Origin: Acidobacteriota bacterium
GTDB taxonomy: Bacteria > Acidobacteriota > UBA6911
Assembly: GCA_016929335.1 (NCBI GenBank)
Contig: JAFGIY010000136.1
Location: 1 to 64,000 of the forward strand
Reading direction: 5' to 3'
Length of the DNA stretch: 64,000 nucleotides
Numbering within the stretch: the stretch's first letter is position 1; the number at the start of each line of letters is the position of its first letter. The notes beneath the pieces were generated by a model, which was not told the origin of the DNA, did no database searches, and saw only the letters and a list, made by a program, of their open reading frames with translations. Shown here in pieces: positions 2,738-16,786 of the stretch. A program made the translations under genes and the position numbers.

Positions 2738-4327
2738 ATGGAATTCAGAGAGGTCATGGTGGCAAAGGTCGGTGAATTGCCGGATGGAACCATGAAACAG
2801 GTGGCGGTCGAAGGCGGAGAGATCCTTCTCACTAATGTTGAAGGCGAAATTTCCGCAGTGGGCGCCTTTTGCACTCATTATAGCGCCCGCCTTGAAAGCG
2901 GGCTCCTGAGCGGCGACACGATTGTCTGTCCGTATCATCAGGCTTGCTTTTGTGCAAAATCAGGCGACCTGAAACAGCCTCCCGCATTGAATGCGCTTCC
3001 TAAATTTGAAGTCCTGCTCAGGGGAGACGATGTGGTTGTTAAGCTCCCCGAAAAGATCGCAAAAAGCCGGATCCCTGAAATGGCGTCGCTCGATTTATCT
3101 CGCGACCCTCGGACATTTGTGATTCTGGGAGCCGGCGCGGCGGGAAACGCCGCGGCTCAAAGTCTTCGTCAAGGCGGCTATATGGGCAGAATCCTGATGG
3201 TTTCCGAAGAAACGGATCTTCCCTACGACCGGCCGAATCTGGACAAGGATTATCTCCAGGGCGAAGCCAAAGATGAATGGATGCCGCTGCGATCGGAAAA
3301 ATTCTTTCAGAACCGCGGCATTGAATTGATGCTTGGGAAAAAGGCAACGAAAGTGGACGCCGCCACAAAGACCCTATCCTTTGAGAAAGGCGAAACACTC
3401 GCCTACGACAAACTGCTGCTGGCGACGGGAAGTATCCCCAGGAAGCTGGGAGTATCCGGTGAAACACTCCGGAATGTTTATACCCTCCGAAGCTACGAGG
3501 ATTCAAGAGCGCTTGTCAAAGCATGCGAGAAGGCGGCACGGGCCGTAATAGTGGGATCAAGCTTCATCGGCCTGGAGGCGGCCTTCAGCCTCAGAAAGCG
3601 CGGGCTTCATGTAACCGTAGTGGCGCCGGAGGCAGTGCCTTTTGAGAAGATTTTCGGCGCAGAGATCGGCGCCATGTTCCGCAAATTTCACGAAGAGAAT
3701 GGCGTGGCATTCCGGCTTGGAACCACCGTTGAAAAATTCGAAGGGGCCGATGCCGTAAATGCCGTGTTGCTGAAAAACGGAGACCGGATAGAAACGGATG
3801 TTGTTCTGATCGGAATCGGTGTTAAACCAAATACCGACTATCTGCAGGGAGTGCCCAGGGAAAGCGACGGCAGCATTAAAATAGACGCGTACTTCCGTGC
3901 AGCTGAAGATATTTACGCCGCAGGTGACATCGCTCGTTTTCGCGACTGGAGCTTTGGTGAAAACATACGGATTGAACACTGGCGCACGGCGGAACAACAG
4001 GGCCGCGATGCCGCATTAAATATGGCAGGGCAATCAACCCCGAACATGAATGTGCCGTTCTTCTGGACCAGGCAAGGCAATTTAGGCATCCGCTATGTGG
4101 GGCATGCTCCGGAGTGGGACGAGATTATTTTTGACGGCGACGTTTCAGCCGGAAATTTCCTGGCATTCTACATCAGGAAGAACGAAGTTCACGCCATCGC
4201 CGGATGCAAGCGCGACAAACAGATGGCGGCAATAATGGAACTCATGCGCCTGAAGCAGATGCCTCCCCCTGCGGAGATTCGGGGCAAGTCTCTCGACTTT
4301 CTTGAACTGCTCAGTCTCTCCCAGTAG
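2738..4327 (+). CDS. Rieske-ferredoxin/FAD reductase fusion (AIFM3-like)
   Basis: 529 aa. Residues 1-105 form a Rieske [2Fe-2S] domain with ligands in CTHYSARL (about 42-44) and CPYHQACF (about 63-66). Residues 120-529 form a pyridine-nucleotide-disulphide-type reductase: VILGAGAAGNAAA (first FAD Rossmann motif), DRPNLDKDYLQG, VIVGSSFIGLEAA (NADH Rossmann motif), then IYAAGDIA (FAD-contacting Asp) and a C-terminal reductase domain. The order matches AIFM3/ferredoxin-NAD reductases that carry their own Rieske centre. It is cytosolic, with no signal peptide. The probable role is NADH-dependent electron transfer to an unidentified acceptor. AGGAG lies ahead of the ATG. Confidence 0.88.
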   Translation: MEFREVMVAKVGELPDGTMKQVAVEGGEILLTNVEGEISAVGAFCTHYSARLESGLLSGDTIVCPYHQACFCAKSGDLKQPPALNALPKFEVLLRGDDVVVKLPEKIAKSRIPEMASLDLSRDPRTFVILGAGAAGNAAAQSLRQGGYMGRILMVSEETDLPYDRPNLDKDYLQGEAKDEWMPLRSEKFFQNRGIELMLGKKATKVDAATKTLSFEKGETLAYDKLLLATGSIPRKLGVSGETLRNVYTLRSYEDSRALVKACEKAARAVIVGSSFIGLEAAFSLRKRGLHVTVVAPEAVPFEKIFGAEIGAMFRKFHEENGVAFRLGTTVEKFEGADAVNAVLLKNGDRIETDVVLIGIGVKPNTDYLQGVPRESDGSIKIDAYFRAAEDIYAAGDIARFRDWSFGENIRIEHWRTAEQQGRDAALNMAGQSTPNMNVPFFWTRQGNLGIRYVGHAPEWDEIIFDGDVSAGNFLAFYIRKNEVHAIAGCKRDKQMAAIMELMRLKQMPPPAEIRGKSLDFLELLSLSQ

Positions 4328-6124: not shown

Positions 6125-6437
6125 TCGCTTTTCCTCCCTTCCCCAAATTTAGCATTCAAAATTCCGAATGCCCTCAGAAATCCGAAATTCAAGTTTCGAG
6201 ATTTGTGCATATGGCAATAATCCTTTGTTCAATCTCGAATTCTTTCTACTGCCTGGGACTCATCAGCCGCTCAAACATACGCTATAATACGTCGGCTGTA
6301 TGACTGGATTTCGGGAGTGTCCTGGTTGGGGCAGCATGGAAGTCGGACCTTTGCTCCGTCCATTCGGTCCCGGGCTCAACTCCGGTGCACCTGTTTGTCT
6401 CTGATTCCGGAGCGGAGACGCGTCGAGAGGAACTGCA
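6125..6437. promoter_or_regulatory. Divergent intergenic region with -10 box and ~140-nt leader
   Basis: TATAAT at 6283-6288 precedes a GC-rich leader of about 140 bases before the receiver-FNT gene. The leader has several short self-complementary words (for example CTCCGG/CCGGAG) and could fold, but I recognise no riboswitch class. A weak AT-rich repeat of TTCGAGATT/AATCTCG words lies at about 6150-6240. Confidence 0.45.
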
Positions 6438-7709
6438 ATGGCAGAAAAAATGTTGATCATCGATGATGACGAAATAGTACTAAAAGCTTGTCGAAGCATT
6501 TTTGAAAAGGAAGGATTTGAGGTCACCGTTACGGCGAATCCGCAGGAGGGTCTGCACATGGTGCTCGAAAGAGCCTTTGATGTGATTCTTGTGGATTGGA
6601 TGATGCCGGGCTTTGACGGGATGGATGTTGTTGAAGAAATCGACAAGCGATCGCCCAATTCAGCCATGGTGATGATCAGCGGGAGCCCCTCCGTCGGCAG
6701 GGCGACAGAAGCCATGAAGCGCGGTGCGATGGATTATGTCGCCAAACCGTTCAAATCCGAAGAAATCATACAGGTTGTAAAGAGGGCCGTTCGACGGAAG
6801 GTGACCGAGGAAACAAAAGCAGTCGGTCGGTTCGAAAAGATGATGAAATCCTGGCAATTTCCCGTGCCAACCCTTGAGGACAAAGCTCCTAAAAACATCG
6901 CGGAAACTGTGGCACAGACTGTCGGGGTTGCAAAGGCGACCTCTCCGTGGCTCTCGGTCTTCGTGCTGGGAATTCTTGCCGGTGCCTATATCGGTTTTGG
7001 AGGCTTTCTTTCCACGACCGTTACTTTTGACGCGGCGGCAATAATCGGCATAGGGCTGACAAAACTGATCAGCGGGGCTGTTTTCAGCGTCGGCCTGATG
7101 CTTGTGGTAATCGCGGGAGGAGAGCTCTTCACCGGCAATAATTTGATGGTTTCAAGCGTCATGTCCAAAGAGATCACCTTTGCGAAAATGATGAAACGAT
7201 GGGGTCTCGTCCTGCTGGCCAATTTCATAGGCGCCATAATCATCACGCTGATTTTTTATTATTCGGGGCTTTGGAGGACCGGAGATGGAGCGCTGGGAGT
7301 TGCTGCCGTTAAGATCGCCTACGCAAAAGTAAATCTTTCTTTCACAGAGGCTCTTGTCCGCGCCATCGGCTGCAACTGGCTGGTTTGCCTGGCTGTCTGG
7401 ATGGCGCTTGCAGCCCGGCAGACGATCGGCAAAATTTTTGCCATTTTCTTCCCTATCATGGCCTTCGTAGCTATGGGATTTGAGCATAATGTCGCCAACA
7501 TGTATTTCATTCCCACCGGCATATTGTTTTCGCACACTCTGTCCATTCCTCTTGCGGCAGGAATCGATATAAACGCTCTCAGCTGGATCAACTTCCTGTG
7601 GAGGAACCTGTTTCCGGTTACAATCGGCAATATCATCGGGGGCGCTGTATTCGTCGGGATGAGTTACTGGGGCGCGTACCTCAGGCCGGTAAAGACCTCT
7701 CAATCCTAA
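6438..7709 (+). CDS. Response-regulator receiver fused to FNT (formate/nitrite) channel
   Basis: 423 aa in one uninterrupted frame. Residues 1-120 are a full receiver domain: acidic pocket IIDDDE (8-12), phospho-acceptor Asp53 in ILVDWMMPGFDGMD, Ser81 at the switch position and Lys103 in VAKPF. A linker of about 45 residues follows. Residues 165-418 are a six-helix FNT channel with GGELFTGNN, CNWLVCLAVW and GFEHNVANMYFIP, including the central His of the pore. FNT proteins move formate, nitrite, hydrosulphide or lactate through pentameric channels. I infer that phosphorylation of the receiver, facing the cytoplasm, could gate the pore. No kinase gene is adjacent. GAGAGGAA precedes the ATG. 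Confidence 0.88.
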   Translation: MAEKMLIIDDDEIVLKACRSIFEKEGFEVTVTANPQEGLHMVLERAFDVILVDWMMPGFDGMDVVEEIDKRSPNSAMVMISGSPSVGRATEAMKRGAMDYVAKPFKSEEIIQVVKRAVRRKVTEETKAVGRFEKMMKSWQFPVPTLEDKAPKNIAETVAQTVGVAKATSPWLSVFVLGILAGAYIGFGGFLSTTVTFDAAAIIGIGLTKLISGAVFSVGLMLVVIAGGELFTGNNLMVSSVMSKEITFAKMMKRWGLVLLANFIGAIIITLIFYYSGLWRTGDGALGVAAVKIAYAKVNLSFTEALVRAIGCNWLVCLAVWMALAARQTIGKIFAIFFPIMAFVAMGFEHNVANMYFIPTGILFSHTLSIPLAAGIDINALSWINFLWRNLFPVTIGNIIGGAVFVGMSYWGAYLRPVKTSQS

Positions 7710-7874: not shown

Positions 7875-8882
7875 ATGGGCATTCCGGTTTCGCAGATGTA
7901 CGCGGTTGCATCCTACATAATCAAGCAAAAGGCATTGGGAAAGAAACGCTATCCGCTGGTGCTCATGCTGGAACCGCTGTTCCGCTGCAATCTGGCCTGC
8001 ATCGGATGCGGCAAGATCCAATATCCGGCCCACATTCTCCGACAGCATTTATCGCCTGAACAGTGTTTCAGGGCCGCCGCCGAGTGCGGGGCTCCGATGG
8101 TCAGTATTCCGGGCGGCGAACCTCTGCTGCATCCTCAAATTGCCGAAATCGTGGAAGGACTGATCGACCGCAGGAAATACGTTTACCTCTGCACAAACGC
8201 CCTTATCCTTAAGGAAAAACTCGACTCGTTCCGCCCCAACAAGTTCTTCACAATCAATGTCCACCTGGATGGGCAAAGGAAATTTCATGATCGATCGGTG
8301 GGCCGTGAAGGCGTCTATGACATTGCAGTCGATGCGATCCGCGAAGCGTTGAAGCGGGGCTTTCGGGTAACGACAAACACGACTCTGTTCAACGATGCCG
8401 ACGCCGCCGGCGTGCGCGCGTTCTTCGACGAAATGATGGATTTGGGCGTCGAGGGGATGACGCTTTCTCCCGGCTACTGCTATGAAAAGGCTCCGGACCA
8501 GCAGCATTTTCTCGATAGGGCCGCGACCACCAGGTTATTTGCCGGCATCCTGAGCAATCGCGGAAGAAAATGGAAATTCAACCAAAGCCCTCTATTCCTG
8601 GAGTTTCTGATGGGCCGGAGAAACTATCCATGCACACCGTGGGGAATGCCCAGCTACAGCCTGTTCGGCTGGCAAAAACCCTGCTATCTGCTTCAGGACG
8701 GATATTTCGATACTTTCGCGGAACTGCTCGAAAAAGGAGAGTGGGACCGCTACGGCATGGAGTCCGGCAATCCCCGCTGCGCGAATTGCATGGTCCATAG
8801 CGGCTACGAAGCCAGCGCCGTCAACGATACCTTCGGCTCCATCAACGGCCTGATAAGTACCATCCGCGCACTCGTGGGGTAA
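7875..8882 (+). CDS. hpnH: Adenosyl-hopene transferase HpnH (radical SAM)
   Basis: 335 aa from the ATG at 7875, which follows GAAGGGA. Two residues identify it: the opening MGIPVSQMYAVASYIIKQK, typical of HpnH, and the radical SAM cluster CNLACIGCGK (CxxxCxxC, about residues 37-44). VSIPGGEPLLHP and FFTINVHLDG follow, and YSLFGWQKPCYLL and CANCMVHSGYE complete the family pattern. The enzyme adds a 5'-deoxyadenosyl group to diploptene, the first step toward side-chain-extended hopanoids. Squalene cyclase and later hpn genes are not in the window, so this copy stands alone here. Confidence 0.9.
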   Translation: MGIPVSQMYAVASYIIKQKALGKKRYPLVLMLEPLFRCNLACIGCGKIQYPAHILRQHLSPEQCFRAAAECGAPMVSIPGGEPLLHPQIAEIVEGLIDRRKYVYLCTNALILKEKLDSFRPNKFFTINVHLDGQRKFHDRSVGREGVYDIAVDAIREALKRGFRVTTNTTLFNDADAAGVRAFFDEMMDLGVEGMTLSPGYCYEKAPDQQHFLDRAATTRLFAGILSNRGRKWKFNQSPLFLEFLMGRRNYPCTPWGMPSYSLFGWQKPCYLLQDGYFDTFAELLEKGEWDRYGMESGNPRCANCMVHSGYEASAVNDTFGSINGLISTIRALVG

Positions 8883-8887
8883 TTCGA

Positions 8888-8963
8888 GATTCGAAATTCG
8901 AGATTCGAAATAAAAATTAAAACAGCAGATGGTTTTTAATCTCAAATCTCGAATTTCGAATCT
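8888..8963. repeat. ATTCGAGATTCGAA-word inverted repeat (family D), terminator-like
   Basis: AGATTCGAAATTCGAGA (8888-8904) pairs perfectly with TCTCGAATTTCGAATCT (8947-8963). The left arm continues the same word in tandem. It sits between convergent hpnH and the CocE-type hydrolase, and overlaps the stop codon of the latter, so it could end transcription both ways. Confidence 0.7.
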
Positions 8964-10824
8964 ATTTCATTTGATACAGCGTAATGCACGACGGGCTGCG
9001 CCGGGACCGGTAGACTCGTTGGGTCGCCTTAATAAAATCTGATTCCTTAGCTTTGTATATGTCGACGAACTGCTGCGGATTCCGGTCGATCAAGGGGAAC
9101 CAGGTGCTTTGTATCTGGATCATAATCCGATGCCCCTTTTGGAACGTGTGGAAGATATCGGGCATCTGAAATTCAATGGTGGCGGCCTCTCCGGGGATAA
9201 AGGGCTCCGGATCCGAAAAGCTATTCCGATATTTGCCGCGGAATGCCTCTCCCCGCACCAACTGCTGGAACCCTCCCATCCGAGACTTTCCCGGCTTCGG
9301 CGGCTTATCCGGATATACATCGATTAGTTTCACAATGAAATCGGAATCGGTTCCTGAAGTCGAGACGCTCAGTCTCGGAGCGACAGGGCCCGCGATCGTT
9401 ATGTCTCGCTGGAGCTCATCGGTTACGTACACCAGCACATCCGGCCGTCGGGATGCAAAGCGCTGATCATCGATCATATGTCCTTGCGTCATCCCGGTGG
9501 TTATTTCATTGGTGTACGGGACCGGTTTCGCCGGATCGCTGATGTATTCGTCGTAATCAGGAGAGACATCATGGCGATCCGGGTCCCATGCAAGTTTTCC
9601 GTTGGCGCACAAATACAGCTTAACCGGTTTGATATGACGAGGCGGCCATTGAGCCTCCTTTTTCCATTGATTGCTTCCGGTCAGGAAAACGTACGCTTCC
9701 GGCAGATTTGGATATTCCATCCCTTTCAGGAAATGCCTGAAAAACGGGTACTCGATCTCCTTGCGATAGAACTCCGAAGTTTTTCCTCCGAACTGAAGAT
9801 TCCCAAAAGAGTCGCCGTCCGAGCGGGCCCAGCCCCCATGATACCAGGGGCCCATGACGAGTATGTTATGGATGCCGGGGTTTAATTCTTCTATTGACTT
9901 ATAGACATTCAGAGCGCCGAACAGATCTTCGGCGTCATACCAGCCTCCGACCGTCATGACTGCGGATTTGATATTCTTGAGATGCGGCCTGAGATTTCTG
10001 CTCTGCCAGAATTCGTCGTAATTGCCGTGCTGCATGATGTGATTCCAGAAAGGAATCTTGTTTTTAAGATACTTTGCATTGGCATTAGGCAGAGGTCCCA
10101 TCTTGAGAAAAAAGTCATATCCGTCAGGTGTTGGAAATTCAAAATGAGGATTAAAGGTCATCGTAGGTTCCGGGCGAGGATGACCGAAGGTGGCGAGAAA
10201 TCCGAAAGCATGGGCCAGATAGAAAGCTCCGTTATGATGGAAATCATCTCCGACGAACCAATCCGCGATAGGAGCTTGAGGAGACACGGCTTTCAGGGCA
10301 GGGTGCGCATCGATCATGCCGGCAGCCGCATAGAATCCGGGATAGGAAATTCCCCACATTCCCACCCTGCCGTTGTTATTCGGGATGCTTTTCACCAGGT
10401 AATCTATGGTGTCATAAGAATCCGTTGATTCGTCCACATCGTCCGGCGCGCGTCTTTGCGGATGCTGGGGAGTCATGTTCACAAACTCTCCCTCGGACAT
10501 CATTCTACCCCGGACATCCTGGTAGGCGAAAATGAAGCCGTCTGCGCTCATTTCATCCGATGGGCCCAGTTCAGCAGGATAATTATCCGTTCCATAAGGA
10601 GCGACGCTATACGGTGTCCGCATCAAAAGGATCGGATAGGTTCGAGTGGTATCCCTGGGAATATAGACGGCGGTAAACAGCTTCTTCCCATCACGCATGG
10701 GTATCAGCAGTTCCTGTTTTGTATAATTCGATTTTATGGATCCGTCCTGCTGGCTCCAGAGAAAACCGAGCAGAGCGAAAGCAATCGATCCCGCAAGGCC
10801 ATACCTGAGCATCCTGTTATTCAT
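8962..10824 (-). CDS. CocE/NonD family hydrolase (X-Pro dipeptidyl-peptidase-like)
   Basis: 620 aa. A signal peptide or anchor spans residues 6-24. The alpha/beta hydrolase core holds QDVRGRMMSEGEF, the nucleophile Ser160 in GMWGISYPGFY, an Asp in GGWYDAEDLFG and His in VMGPWYHGGW. The C-terminal X-Pro jelly-roll (about 440-610) includes QIQSTWFPLIDRNP. The family includes cocaine esterase, glutaryl-acylase-like enzymes and Xaa-Pro dipeptidyl peptidases; the exact substrate cannot be told. It is probably exported and acts on acyl esters, amides or peptides. The promoter is shared with a divergent AAA ATPase gene. Confidence 0.85.
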   Translation of the reverse strand: MNNRMLRYGLAGSIAFALLGFLWSQQDGSIKSNYTKQELLIPMRDGKKLFTAVYIPRDTTRTYPILLMRTPYSVAPYGTDNYPAELGPSDEMSADGFIFAYQDVRGRMMSEGEFVNMTPQHPQRRAPDDVDESTDSYDTIDYLVKSIPNNNGRVGMWGISYPGFYAAAGMIDAHPALKAVSPQAPIADWFVGDDFHHNGAFYLAHAFGFLATFGHPRPEPTMTFNPHFEFPTPDGYDFFLKMGPLPNANAKYLKNKIPFWNHIMQHGNYDEFWQSRNLRPHLKNIKSAVMTVGGWYDAEDLFGALNVYKSIEELNPGIHNILVMGPWYHGGWARSDGDSFGNLQFGGKTSEFYRKEIEYPFFRHFLKGMEYPNLPEAYVFLTGSNQWKKEAQWPPRHIKPVKLYLCANGKLAWDPDRHDVSPDYDEYISDPAKPVPYTNEITTGMTQGHMIDDQRFASRRPDVLVYVTDELQRDITIAGPVAPRLSVSTSGTDSDFIVKLIDVYPDKPPKPGKSRMGGFQQLVRGEAFRGKYRNSFSDPEPFIPGEAATIEFQMPDIFHTFQKGHRIMIQIQSTWFPLIDRNPQQFVDIYKAKESDFIKATQRVYRSRRSPSCITLYQMK

Positions 10825-12434: not shown

Positions 12435-12477
12435 CCGTGAATTGCACGAAGGCATTTTCATTCGTGCAATTCGCGGC
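12434..12477. repeat. CACGAATT-type inverted repeat (family A, copy 2)
   Basis: GCCGTGAATTGCACGAA (12434-12450) and TTCGTGCAATTCGCGGC (12461-12477) pair at 16 of 17 positions with a 10-base loop. Convergent genes end on both sides. The right arm encodes the last residues and stop of the YhaN-like gene. Confidence 0.8.
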
Positions 12478-15340
12478 CGAAGCCGTTTTGATCCAATCGG
12501 ACTATGTGGGCGTTCTGGTGGAGAGCGAGTTCGAGCAGATCCTCCCGGCAGGTGAACAGGATAAGCTGGCGGCGCACGGCTTCTCCGGCCAGTATCTCGA
12601 ACGCTTCCCTCAGCCGGATTCTATCGTAGGCGGCAAACGGTTCATCCAGAAGACAGGGACAGGACTCGGCTTCATTGGAAACCAGATCCAGGATGCCGAA
12701 GCGCATGGAAAAATAGATCTGATCCTGAGTACCCCGGCTGAGATGTTCCGCAGATCGCAGCTCCCCGCTGCCGGGCTCTCGAACCCATACCTGGAAATCG
12801 GGATCGATTTTGACCTCTTCGTAGCGGCGCCCGCACAGACGAAGGAAACGCTGCTCGACCGCGGCATTCAGCTGCGGCGCCAGCACTTCCTGCTGCTGCC
12901 GGGAAAGCCTCTCAATGGTTTCCAGCGCGATTTCCAGCGCAAGGCGATTGGTTTCCAATTCCCGGAGACTCCGCTCCGCCAGAGCGAGGTCTTCCTCAAT
13001 TTCGGAGTCGAGCCGATAGCTCCGGAAAGCCTGGTTGATGCGCTCCACGGTGCGCGCGTACTCTTCGCGGGTGCCGGACAACTGAGAAACGATCTGTTTT
13101 TCCTGTTCTTCGGCTTCAGAAATCGTCGGCTGATAGGGCAGAAGCGGCGCGGAGCTTTCGACCTCAACCCTGGGAGTCACTCCGCCTGATTCCGCCGCGG
13201 CCTGAGAATTCTGCCGCGCCGTAAATTCACACAGTTGTTCCTCCCATTGCTGCAGAGTCAGGTCGCCGGCCAGCCTGTTGAATTCTCTTTTGCGCGACGA
13301 TTCCCTGTCAAGAAGCGCCAGCAATTTTTGCCGCCTGGCACACTCCTCGCGAAATCTTTCGGGAGAATCGACCTGCGCCCGATCCAGCAACGATTGAATG
13401 CGCGCGCAAGTCAGGTTGTATTCCTCCGTCAGTTCCGAATCCCTGGACCCTATAGCCTCGGCTTTCTCGATGCAATTGCCGTAATTGATGTCGAGATCAC
13501 GGAACCGCCGGAGATTGGACCGCAAGGCATCGATCTGGAACTTCAGATTGCCGGGAGAGCAGGAAAGGCCCACTTTGGCCAGCCCATCCTTCAATGACTG
13601 ATACAAATCCCGGGACTGTTCCTCCAGGCGGTGCTCCTGCTGTTCCGCTTCCACAAGACGAGCCTGAAGGTCAGCCATTTTCCGGCGGTCTTGATCGGCC
13701 TGTTTCGCTGCCGCAAGAAAATCATCCAGCTTGTGAAAGCCCGAATCAGTCATCACCAGATTCAGTTGCCTTCGCTTTTTCCCGCCTTCCTTGCGGATAT
13801 CGGCCAGTTCTGCTTCAAGGCTGCCCAGCATCTTTTTTGCCTGCTGTGCGGCTTGCGCCCGCCTGCTGCCGGATATCAAAAGGATCACGGCTGCAACGGC
13901 ACACACAGCGCCGATTCCAATTCCCAATTCAAGCGAAAGAAAGGCGGGTATAGGGATGAGCTGCGTGGATAGCGACAAGGCAGCGAAAACGAGGAACATA
14001 CCTCCGAGGAGTCTCCGGTTCAGCGCGGACCGGGCTGCGGATGAGCGGCTGGAATTTTCAGCCGCGATTTTTTCGGCAAGGAGCGAACAGCTCTGGGAAG
14101 CATCCTGTTCTTCTTCTGCCGCCTCGCGAGCCAGGCGCTGCCAGTCCGTGTCCGGATCTATCAAAGCCGGGCTGAGTTCGCTCAATCGCTTTTCCAGAAC
14201 TCCGGCTTCGCTTTGAAGCCGGCTGATGGTCTTCTGCAGACCGTCCTTCTGAAGTGAAATGCCGAGGTAGCTTACAAACCATTCGGTAATCTTTTCCGCA
14301 TCCGAACTTGCGGCAAATGCCTCGTACGCGGCAAGCTCCTGTCTTTGCAATTTGGCGCGATCGAGTTGCGCCAACGAAGCCTCTCTCTCAGCCCGGACCT
14401 CGCTCAGCTGTCTGCCAATGCTGTCGCGCGCGCCAACCAATCGGTTTAGTTCTTCAAGACCATCGCTCGGAAAATCGGCACGAGCGCCCAAAGCCTCGAT
14501 TTCAGCCCTCAAATTGGCCAGGTCGCCGTTGATTTCCTCCAGAGCCTGTACTCTGGAGGCTGCTTCTATCCGGCGGGCCGACAGAAGCGCCGCCCGGATT
14601 TTTACGAGATCCTGCTCCAGCTTCGTGATTTCACAGGCAACGCGGTTCCGATCCTCGATCCATCCCTGGAATTGGACCCGCCGTTCCTCGAGATCCTTGC
14701 GTTCGGATTGAAGAGACTGAACAAGATCCTGAGCCTGCTTATACGGCTTTGTCGGCGCCCGATCCGATCCTATGGAATCCAGCTTTCCTTCAAGGCTTGA
14801 CAGGCTGCGGCGAATGGAAAGCTCTTCATCTCCCGATTGGGCCAGATTTGCGATCCGGTCGCGAATAGTCTCATAGCCATAGATCTCCGCAACCTTGTTT
14901 TCCCTGATCATTCCAACGGACTCAAAAAGATCTTTGGGCATTCCCAGATGGCAGGGAGCGAACAACACTTCGCCGTTTCGCTGCTGCTCATATTGGCCGG
15001 TAATGTCTTCACCGGTAGAGGCACGGATTTCAATCCGAATCTCTTCTTTGCCGAAAGACCGGTGAATTTCCACTTCGCGCCCGTCTGCAAAACGGCACCA
15101 GAGAATTCCGCCGTATTCAGAGCCCCGCCATGGCTTGTATTGTTCCACCCAGGAATCCAGCCTGCGCTGAACCCGCAAATCCGATCGTAATTGTCCATAA
15201 AGCAATCCGACCAGAAAGCGCTGGAGGGTAGTTTTCCCTCCCTCATTTTCGGCGAAAACGAGGTTCAGCCCGTTCTGAAAATCAAACGGAAGGTCGCAGA
15301 GTTTTCCGAATCCATGAATCCGGCCGCGCAGAAGTATCAT
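12458..15340 (-). CDS. SbcC/YhaN-like ATPase with long coiled coils
   Basis: 960 aa. The N-terminal half of an SMC/Rad50-type ATPase head carries Walker A in FAENEGGKTTLQR (about residues 31-43). Long heptad-rich coiled coils follow, interrupted by a hydrophobic hairpin (LLGGMFLVFAALSLSTQLIPIPAFL and a second segment, about 450-500), as in YhaN. The C-terminal head has the signature LSRGTQDQIYFSMR and Walker B CPCLLDEPFAAYD. The family works with an SbcD-like nuclease in DNA end processing; the internal membrane hairpin suggests membrane attachment. It overlaps the upstream SbcD-like gene by 4 bases (translational coupling). The final codons lie inside a family A repeat arm. Confidence 0.85.
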   Translation of the reverse strand: MILLRGRIHGFGKLCDLPFDFQNGLNLVFAENEGGKTTLQRFLVGLLYGQLRSDLRVQRRLDSWVEQYKPWRGSEYGGILWCRFADGREVEIHRSFGKEEIRIEIRASTGEDITGQYEQQRNGEVLFAPCHLGMPKDLFESVGMIRENKVAEIYGYETIRDRIANLAQSGDEELSIRRSLSSLEGKLDSIGSDRAPTKPYKQAQDLVQSLQSERKDLEERRVQFQGWIEDRNRVACEITKLEQDLVKIRAALLSARRIEAASRVQALEEINGDLANLRAEIEALGARADFPSDGLEELNRLVGARDSIGRQLSEVRAEREASLAQLDRAKLQRQELAAYEAFAASSDAEKITEWFVSYLGISLQKDGLQKTISRLQSEAGVLEKRLSELSPALIDPDTDWQRLAREAAEEEQDASQSCSLLAEKIAAENSSRSSAARSALNRRLLGGMFLVFAALSLSTQLIPIPAFLSLELGIGIGAVCAVAAVILLISGSRRAQAAQQAKKMLGSLEAELADIRKEGGKKRRQLNLVMTDSGFHKLDDFLAAAKQADQDRRKMADLQARLVEAEQQEHRLEEQSRDLYQSLKDGLAKVGLSCSPGNLKFQIDALRSNLRRFRDLDINYGNCIEKAEAIGSRDSELTEEYNLTCARIQSLLDRAQVDSPERFREECARRQKLLALLDRESSRKREFNRLAGDLTLQQWEEQLCEFTARQNSQAAAESGGVTPRVEVESSAPLLPYQPTISEAEEQEKQIVSQLSGTREEYARTVERINQAFRSYRLDSEIEEDLALAERSLRELETNRLALEIALETIERLSRQQQEVLAPQLNAAVEQRFLRLCGRRYEEVKIDPDFQVWVREPGSGELRSAEHLSRGTQDQIYFSMRFGILDLVSNEAESCPCLLDEPFAAYDRIRLREAFEILAGEAVRRQLILFTCREDLLELALHQNAHIVRLDQNGFGRELHE

Positions 15341-16482
15341 CGAAGCCTCACTTCCCGCCCGCTGAGAGCCTGGACGCCATAAAGCCGTGCGCGTTCCAGG
15401 ACAGCCCGCTCCTCTTCGGGAGTGTCGGCAATCCGATCATTTAAAAGACGGACAAATCTGCCGCGCAACGTTTTTTCCCGGGAGATGGAATCAAAATCAA
15501 GTGCGGAATGCGTTTGATCTTCCCATCGTATATACAAGGCTTCACCTGCCAGCCTCTCTTCAATCTCGGGCAAAGAGAGCTCAAGTCGCGGATCGAGTGC
15601 GCCCACCAGTTGTACGCGAAGTATGGTTTTGGAGTTGAACCGAATCCCTCGCTGCTCCAGGATAGCGTCCAGGATCTGCTCGCGTGTGGAAAAAGCATCG
15701 CAGTTGACGACAATAGTGTTCAAATCATATTGGCTGCAGAATTGACTCTCCACCCGCACAGAACCGCCGTCCATTTCTCCAAGAAGATAGCCGCAGGCGC
15801 CTTCTTCATCCCACCCTCTCCCTTCGGGAATTCCCGAATACCAGATTTGAGCGTCGTCGATCGCATTCGACAGGCGATGCTGCTGATGGTAATGGCCCAG
15901 GGCGCAATAGTAAACGTTTTTGCCGGCGATCTCGTCGATCGAAAATGGACCATGTTTCGACTTTCCCTCCGGAACCCTGCCGACATCAGAACCGTGAGAA
16001 AGCACGATATTGAAGAAATCGTTTGATAACACCGGCAACCGCCGAAAATGATGTTCATCAAGCCGGGCATGGGCAAAACCAAAGCCGGTCACCCGGACTC
16101 CCAGGTCCGGAAGCTCAACGAACTGGAATTCTTCCGCTCCGAAGATGTGGACATTCGCAGGCCAGGTCTCTTCTTTATAAGGAGAGCCTTGAACGCAAGG
16201 GTCATGGTTCCCGGATGAAATAAATATGCGGATATCCCGAATGCTATCGAACTGCTGCCTGAGAAACTCAAAAGTATCCGGCGTTATCCGTTCCAGCTCG
16301 AACAGATCTCCGGCAATAAGAAGGAGATCGACATTATAGGAACGGGCATCGTCGATGATGCGCCGAAGGACGCTTCGGATTGCCTCCCGCTTGCGATCCC
16401 CGATACGGGAAGGAAAGCCGGACGCCGAGAAGCTGGTATCAAGATGAAGATCGGACGTATGGATAAAACGCACTGTTTTCAT
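15337..16482 (-). CDS. SbcD/YhaO-like DNA repair exonuclease
   Basis: 381 aa from the ATG at 16482, placed so that FIHTSDLHLD opens the protein. It is a calcineurin-like phosphoesterase: DLHLD (metal site 1), LLIAGDLFE (site 2), SSGNHDPC (His/Asn), LSHGSD and YCALGHYHQQH (late His ligands). A capping region of about 120 residues follows, as in Mre11/SbcD proteins. Partnered with the downstream ATPase, it should form a two-subunit nuclease acting on DNA ends or hairpins. A GTG at 16509 is a possible alternative start. The 277 bases upstream hold no gene. Confidence 0.87.
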   Translation of the reverse strand: MKTVRFIHTSDLHLDTSFSASGFPSRIGDRKREAIRSVLRRIIDDARSYNVDLLLIAGDLFELERITPDTFEFLRQQFDSIRDIRIFISSGNHDPCVQGSPYKEETWPANVHIFGAEEFQFVELPDLGVRVTGFGFAHARLDEHHFRRLPVLSNDFFNIVLSHGSDVGRVPEGKSKHGPFSIDEIAGKNVYYCALGHYHQQHRLSNAIDDAQIWYSGIPEGRGWDEEGACGYLLGEMDGGSVRVESQFCSQYDLNTIVVNCDAFSTREQILDAILEQRGIRFNSKTILRVQLVGALDPRLELSLPEIEERLAGEALYIRWEDQTHSALDFDSISREKTLRGRFVRLLNDRIADTPEEERAVLERARLYGVQALSGREVRLR

Positions 16483-16786
16483 AGCTTCAATCTGCAAATT
16501 CCGGCTCACGCCTGATTAAATCGGCGTCTCTCCTCTATTTGTTCAGCAGGCAGAGTCTTTCAGGCACCTGAAACATGCCGCTGACCGTTCCGGCTGCGCC
16601 TGCAAACCTTATCCGAATCATCCGATTGAATATGCAGGATGGGACATACAAGATGCAACATTAAATAAGGATCCCAAGCGGCACAACTCCCGACTTGAGC
16701 TCCATGCCATCGGGATTCCAAAACCATGAGGAAAAAACCACTGCCCTATTGCCGGTATATGCCGATTAGGAGAATGAAGAGGATTT

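Follow-up and report, generated by a model that had tools for sequence, protein, structure and literature searches.

Response regulators are known mainly to act through outputs that serve transcription and DNA binding, enzymatic reactions, or protein binding. What does a receiver domain do when the rest of its protein is a membrane channel? The question is raised by a gene in the 64-kb window, which is the whole stretch of DNA analysed here (positions 1 to 64,000 of contig JAFGIY010000136.1 from an Acidobacteriota bacterium, assembly GCA_016929335.1). The gene, at 6438–7709 on the forward strand, encodes a 423-residue protein composed of a receiver (REC) domain and a channel domain of the formate/nitrite transporter (FNT) family, and is supported by its open frame and by homologues in other genomes. 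We lean slightly towards reading this REC-FNT fusion as a response regulator whose output is the gating of a FocA-type anion channel, with formate as the most likely cargo.

The gene runs from ATG to TAA as a single frame with no internal stops, and a Shine-Dalgarno-like GAGAGGA (6425–6431, read by eye) stands ahead of the ATG. All features of the gene described below are on the forward strand. The receiver domain (residues 6–114, 6453–6779) matches Pfam Response_reg (PF00072) with an E value of 3.4e-28 and 98.5 bits against a cut-off of 30.2. The channel domain (residues 155–411, 6900–7670), which also has a fold match to FocA, matches Form_Nir_trans (PF01226) with an E value of 2.1e-81 and 273.3 bits against a cut-off of 34.6, and it lies above the cut-off of the NCBIfam FNT model TIGR00790 (255.4 versus 232.3 bits). 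The receiver carries D9, D10, D53, S81, Y100, and K103, among which D53 (codon 6594–6596) is the predicted phospho-acceptor and K103 (codon 6744–6746) the conserved receiver lysine. In the channel, T232 (codon 7131–7133) and H350 (codon 7485–7487) align with the pore residues T91 and H209 of FocA, respectively, both pairs being counted by hand along the profile alignment. Behind the channel domain, residues 414–416 (7677–7685) form a Y-L-R motif seen in the alignment of copies, and PMC5572259 reports this motif for FocA-type proteins. A sequence-only reading of this DNA had proposed a receiver joined in frame to a complete FNT channel, with D53, K103, an acidic pocket and the pore histidine present, no intergenic gap, and neither half damaged. 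Each of these points is borne out by the uninterrupted frame, the two domain scores far above their cut-offs, and the intact active-site residues D9, D10, D53, K103, and H350.

The fusion is present in 23 genomes, six in the window's genus and 17 others, which excludes the situation that the same reading had named as fatal to it, namely that no related genome has a homologue of this architecture. An artefact of assembly or frame is likewise ruled out, because other genomes repeat this domain order and linker, and three of the other copies sit on contigs of 2.5, 3.7, and 4.5 Mb (G430, G236, and G378, respectively). In the surveys, the match start and the open frame decided whether a channel was called fused or unfused, with the fused calls then checked at their loci. 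Among 396 genomes of the window's phylum (E 1e-40), 20 have an FNT gene and six of these have it fused, all six being of the window's own genus (the window genome G000, and G001, G003, G004, G006, and G007); the public records of G001, G003, G004, and G007 were deposited as Acidobacteria. The phylum of G199 (locus L032, deposited as Syntrophaceae; 395 genomes, E 1e-40) has FNT genes in 50 genomes, fused in 10. The 197 relatives of G200 (locus L035, deposited as Deltaproteobacterium; E 0.001) have FNT in 27, of which 12 are fused, 12 lack a receiver, and three are C-terminal fragments that do not permit a call (G418, G446, and G461). Loci L197 and L198 were confirmed as fused copies. Contig ends truncate the copies of G001 and G004: the former (L118) shows receiver residues 98–125 only, and the latter is split into two halves, L116 and L117. 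Within the 6.5-Mb window genome, a search with the channel half at E 0.001 found only the FNT gene of the fusion. Aside from the fused copies, the window's genus has an unfused FNT in G005, 67% identical to the window channel, and more distant ones in G002 and G008; no FNT was found in G009, an assembly 81% complete.

Several candidates in these searches were set aside. A viral or mobile origin was rejected, as a single scan of viral contigs gave no relative. The 589-residue open frame of L103 (Solirubrobacteraceae) seems to have an N-terminal extension, which by eye is GC-rich translation and holds no receiver. One of the fused copies, at L182:2155–3450 (G440), has three in-frame stops in its channel half and altered conserved positions, and represents either a pseudogene or a poor assembly.

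Both halves of the fusion are conserved. Eighteen full-length copies of 417–426 residues were aligned, and the 17 others are 62–81% identical to the window protein; this set excludes the contig-end copies of G001 and G004 (the latter including L116), the broken L182, and the later-found L197 and L198. For counts of receiver residues, the partial L116 and the broken L182 were added to give 20 rows, again excluding L197 and L198. D9, D10, D53, P57, and K103 are invariant in all 20 rows, residue 81 is serine in 19 of the 20 and threonine in L035, and residue 100 is tyrosine in 17 of 18 and phenylalanine in L175. T232, E349, and H350 of the channel are invariant in the 18 full-length copies, and the motif ending the last helix is YLR or YLK in 17 of them and YLW in L172. 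The 18 copies share 145 invariant columns; the channel accounts for 100 of them, the receiver for 37, and the linker for 6, while 2 follow the channel. Averaged by region, identity to the window protein amounts to 73.5% (channel), 69.6% (linker), and 68.9% (receiver). The ratio of nonsynonymous to synonymous substitution rates is 0.02–0.14 for the receiver and 0.04–0.20 for the channel, as obtained from the six of ten pairs whose synonymous divergence is usable in both halves. In the four pairs that include the window copy, synonymous divergence of the receiver is saturated, and differences were counted by codon position instead; the window receiver differs from that of L032 at 15 first, 9 second, and 64 third positions. 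These values indicate that purifying selection acts on both halves and that the receiver is kept about as strictly as the channel. The invariant columns, together with this selection, argue that the fusion is not a chance product.

The neighborhood of the fusion holds a candidate partner for its receiver. Of the 20 fused loci with readable upstream DNA, 18 have a gene for a sensor histidine kinase upstream of the fusion, in the same orientation and no more than about 2.5 kb away (L032, L039, L035, L112, L113, L116, L171 to L178, L180, L181, L182, and L198). Not counted are L179, L197, and L118, where the upstream DNA ends too soon, and in L173 and L198 only the end of the kinase lies within the DNA read. 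Domain scans of three kinases showed sCache_3, HAMP, HisKA, and HATPase in every one. Seventeen of the 18 kinase-bearing loci have at least one separate receiver gene between kinase and fusion, and none was found in L172. Evolutionary distances among the receivers correlate with those among the kinases (r 0.89) and among the FNT domains (r 0.82), and in neither case was the value reached in any of 2000 permutations (n=14 for both). One type of separate receiver, about 214 residues long and ending in a conserved tail of roughly 90 residues, adjoins the fusion in L035 (3252–3896), L171, L173, L178, L179, L181, L197, and L198; the tail has no Pfam match in the two proteins scanned (L035 and L171). 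Between kinase and fusion, L177 (7518–8648, scanned) and L180 (10586–11716, by similarity) have a receiver-HisKA-HATPase protein, and since it stands beside the operon kinase, these two operons hold two kinases.

How could phosphorylation reach the pore? FocA of E. coli, V. cholerae, and S. Typhimurium (PDB 3kcu, 3kly, 3q7k, and 9g49, among which we take 3kly to be the V. cholerae protein) shares with the fusion the FNT fold, the pore threonine and histidine, and the GFEH and Y-L-R motifs. These structures are the best solved fold matches, with TM-scores up to 0.84 by target length and 35–40% identity to the fusion channel in the matches listed. The last receiver helix appears in the AlphaFold2 model as one long helix (residues 107–138, 6756–6851), whose extension is tentative, as residues 125–169 have a predicted local distance difference test (pLDDT) score below 50. 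It is followed in the linker alignment by a conserved junction (residues 139–154, 6852–6899) that runs into the segment aligned with the N-terminal region of FocA; the profile alignments to this region begin at residue 150 for 3kly and 157 for 3kcu. According to PMC11841067, E. coli pyruvate formate-lyase interacts with the short cytoplasmic N-terminal helix of FocA, translocation is severely impaired when this helix is removed, and channel gating is presumed to depend on the contact between the two proteins. In the fusion, the receiver is attached at this place. Both termini of the FocA protomer are cytoplasmic (PMC5572259). With this end of the channel in the cytoplasm, the compartment in which kinases act, the receiver is expected there too, and its attachment point is the segment to which gating is ascribed. 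The kinase found upstream in 18 of 20 loci and the gating role reported for the FocA N terminus together lend support to the direct phospho-control of a channel that the sequence-only reading had suggested.

The proposed pathway would begin at the membrane kinase, whose extracytoplasmic sCache_3 domain may sense a small molecule. We infer that the kinase phosphorylates D53 and that this gates the pore, with formate as the probable cargo. A change in receiver shape, or receiver self-association, would be relayed by the final receiver helix and the linker until it reached the channel's cytoplasmic N-terminal segment, and flux within the pentamer would be gated while gene expression stays unchanged. 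The receiver could thereby take the place of a protein partner such as pyruvate formate-lyase, as a covalently attached and phosphorylation-controlled element. For the pathway as a whole, in which a kinase acts through Asp53 on each protomer of the pentamer and gates the flux of formate or a similar anion directly and fast without transcription, we see the case as evenly balanced.

Several observations weigh against the gating reading, and they concern its structural basis, the kinase partner, and the cargo. The AlphaFold2 model, built from the 18-row alignment, is weak (mean pLDDT 67.3, predicted template modelling score 0.49; the first 60 receiver residues average 75–89) and holds nothing reliable on the placement of the receiver. 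The distance correlations may arise through shared ancestry alone, and ancestry contributes to both of them. The 64-kb window yielded no relative of the operon kinase, and the G003 copy has no kinase neighbor on its contig of only 6.2 kb. In the window genome, the best full-length kinase match reaches no more than 40% identity to the operon kinase; the corresponding values are 37% in G003 and 42% in G001, whereas the kinases encoded in the operons of G004, G006, and G007 reach 64–65%. At 40%, and with a regulator in a 474-residue frame directly behind it, the window genome's match was rejected as an orthologous kinase located elsewhere. By these data, the window copy is an orphan. It shares with G003, the other kinase-less copy, the receiver residues A17, K24, and R45, which occur in none of the 16 other copies; among 153 pairs, only the close kin L177 and L180 exceed this pair in private shared receiver residues. 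The three residues weakly hint at altered partner contacts. For the window species alone, these points would fit a receiver that is an unused leftover after loss of the kinase, in a gene that serves as a channel only, but the active-site residues are intact in both kinase-less copies, and the receiver differences from L032 fall mostly at third positions. We regard such a leftover as unlikely. Roles other than gating can be conceived for a functional receiver as well. The channel may be the sensor, such that anion binding or flux alters the rate of receiver phosphorylation or dephosphorylation and informs the kinase and the separate receivers; the latter, found in 17 of the 18 loci that have a kinase, would then be candidates for the true outputs. 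Receivers generally accept phosphate and do not initiate a signal, however, and the kinase has a sensor domain of its own. Ks-Amt5, as described in PMC5764959, provides a precedent, as it likewise combines a two-component module with a transporter; in this fusion of a histidine kinase with an ammonium transporter, the transporter domain has been turned into a sensor. There the transporter is the input, the kinase is the output, and transport is lost, whereas in the REC-FNT fusion the receiver is the expected input, the channel the expected output, and the pore threonine and histidine are FocA-like in all 18 full-length copies. On balance a sensing channel is quite improbable. We think it at least as doubtful that the receiver is a membrane-tethered phosphate sink or kinase-docking module on a constitutive transporter. 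Many loci have several receivers per kinase, and one receiver can in general drain another; yet the mean conservation of the linker matches that of the two domains, which a passive tether would not need, an argument qualified by the fact that only 6 of its 35 columns are invariant.

The gating reading is compatible with more than one cargo, and the evidence for formate is mixed. By its sequence, the window channel is FocA-like rather than FocA, because it misses the cut-off of the FocA formate channel equivalog TIGR04060 (231.2 versus 290.1 bits). Part of the case for formate comes from unfused relatives. Ten unfused loci in nine genomes (L016, L017, L138, L194, L196, and L199–L202, with L195 being the same place as L016) have the FNT gene directly downstream of a gene for the formate dehydrogenase alpha subunit (FdhA), which scores 568–632 bits to TIGR01591 over the part present, the cut-off of 666 being set for the whole protein; these loci were picked because FdhA was visible. 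The 1204-residue open frame listed at one of them (L194, G572) was rejected as a fusion, as it is FdhA, a stop, and then an unfused FNT. Counted over all unfused loci retrieved with 47–60% identity to the window channel, FdhA ends at most 1 kb upstream in 10 of 30 (9 of 29 distinct places), compared with 5 of 94 under 47% identity. By bin, the counts are 8 of 13 at 51–60%, 2 of 17 at 47–51%, 2 of 40 at 43–47%, and 3 of 54 below; in the top bin (60–101%), L120–L122 are fused loci mislabelled as unfused, and a single place is listed three times, as L015, L115, and L193. Conversely, 20 of the 29 channels of 47–60% identity have no FdhA just upstream, nor has the unfused G005 channel, the nearest to the fused ones, and an FdhA match at 1e-10 was found in no fused locus, the 64-kb window included. 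FdhA is above the cut-off in five of the eight fusion-bearing genomes searched (G006, G007, G236, G378, and G430), each of the five reading with one internal TGA as expected for selenocysteine enzymes; in the window genome the best match stays below the family cut-off (306 versus 666 bits), and G003 and G004 have no FdhA at E 1e-60. Pyruvate formate-lyase was rejected as the formate source, as none of these eight genomes has it above the cut-off, weaker matches occurring in five, the window's included. Among genes near the fusion, L032 (scanned) and L039 (by similarity) have an FrhB/FdhB-like protein, with HydE further upstream in L032, and L178 has NuoF-like, glutamate-synthase-like, and NuoG/Fdh-like proteins, the last scoring well under its cut-offs. 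In L039, L172, and L178, the fusion has an acetate-CoA ligase gene no more than about 5.5 kb away, which makes acetate or another small acid a real alternative. A cargo other than formate, be it an acetate-like small monocarboxylate or another FNT anion, agrees with the missing FdhA neighbor, the score under the equivalog cut-off, and the three of eight host genomes where FdhA is below the cut-off or not found; against it stand FdhA in the other five, its position before the closer unfused channels, and the FocA-like GFEH and Y-L-R motifs. We consider such a cargo possible but less than probable, and formate the likeliest.

The fused channels have one apparent origin. In a maximum-likelihood tree of 61 FNT domains (18 fused and 43 unfused, a selection of the loci retrieved), a branch supported at 100/97 sets the fused channels apart from the unfused, and their nearest neighbor is the unfused G005 channel (100/99). 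A single fusion event would explain this tree. The G005 gene (L115, about 8300–9176), an unfused FNT of the window's genus adjacent to the fused clade, is either near the pre-fusion state or a case of receiver loss. The receiver tree unites the copies of the window's genus with L032 and L039, both from Syntrophaceae, in a six-member set with support 100/99. The fusion-bearing genomes of the window's genus are absent from the 198 relatives of G199 and from the 395 genomes of its phylum, and since the receivers group nonetheless, horizontal transfer between the window's genus and the Syntrophaceae lineage is suggested.

The fusion shares the complete phosphorylation site of CheY/NtrC-type receivers (PF00072), with NtrC-family receivers among its best solved matches, and differs from these regulators in that its output is a membrane channel. 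In the open literature, we found no paper on a receiver-FNT fusion or on a response regulator with a channel as output, subscription papers lying mostly outside this scope; domain databases may already record the architecture. Both domain families are known; their combination and the operon are apparently new, at least to us. If the gating reading is true, the fusion would define a new class of response-regulator output, present in an Acidobacteria-deposited genus and in lineages deposited as Syntrophaceae and Deltaproteobacteria. A conserved regulator of this kind would let a signal sensed outside the cell act on metabolite flux in a single step. Anaerobic partners exchange formate and similar acids, and a fast channel under sensor control would matter for syntrophy and sulfate reduction. 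The opening mechanism of FocA-type pores is a subject of ongoing work, and a natural protein with a phosphorylation switch at the presumed gating end would make this question directly testable, with the operon kinases as ready in vitro partners for the fusion proteins.

Another N-terminal FNT fusion was seen in four genomes related to G199, in which a ferritin-like/rubrerythrin domain precedes the channel (L155:1411–2700 and L156:1408–2697 on the reverse strand, L157:1–1188 on the reverse strand and cut by the contig end, and L158:1018–2307 on the forward strand). It has 430 residues in three copies, and Pfam was run on L155 and L158. It resembles REC-FNT in the position of the added domain and differs in that the domain is unrelated, the channel belongs to a distant FNT branch (24–26% identity), and the motif is SFTH instead of GFEH (by eye). 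Within the window, the neighbors of REC-FNT encode an O-methyltransferase, a radical SAM DUF3463 protein, and a protein that we label cupin-like, which Pfam did not match at 1e-5. A Rieske domain fused to a pyridine nucleotide-disulphide oxidoreductase is encoded at 2738–4327, presumably a fusion of known type. On the reverse strand, 12458–16509 holds an overlapping pair of genes for an AAA_23 ATPase and a metallophosphoesterase, which we read as SbcC/SbcD-like.
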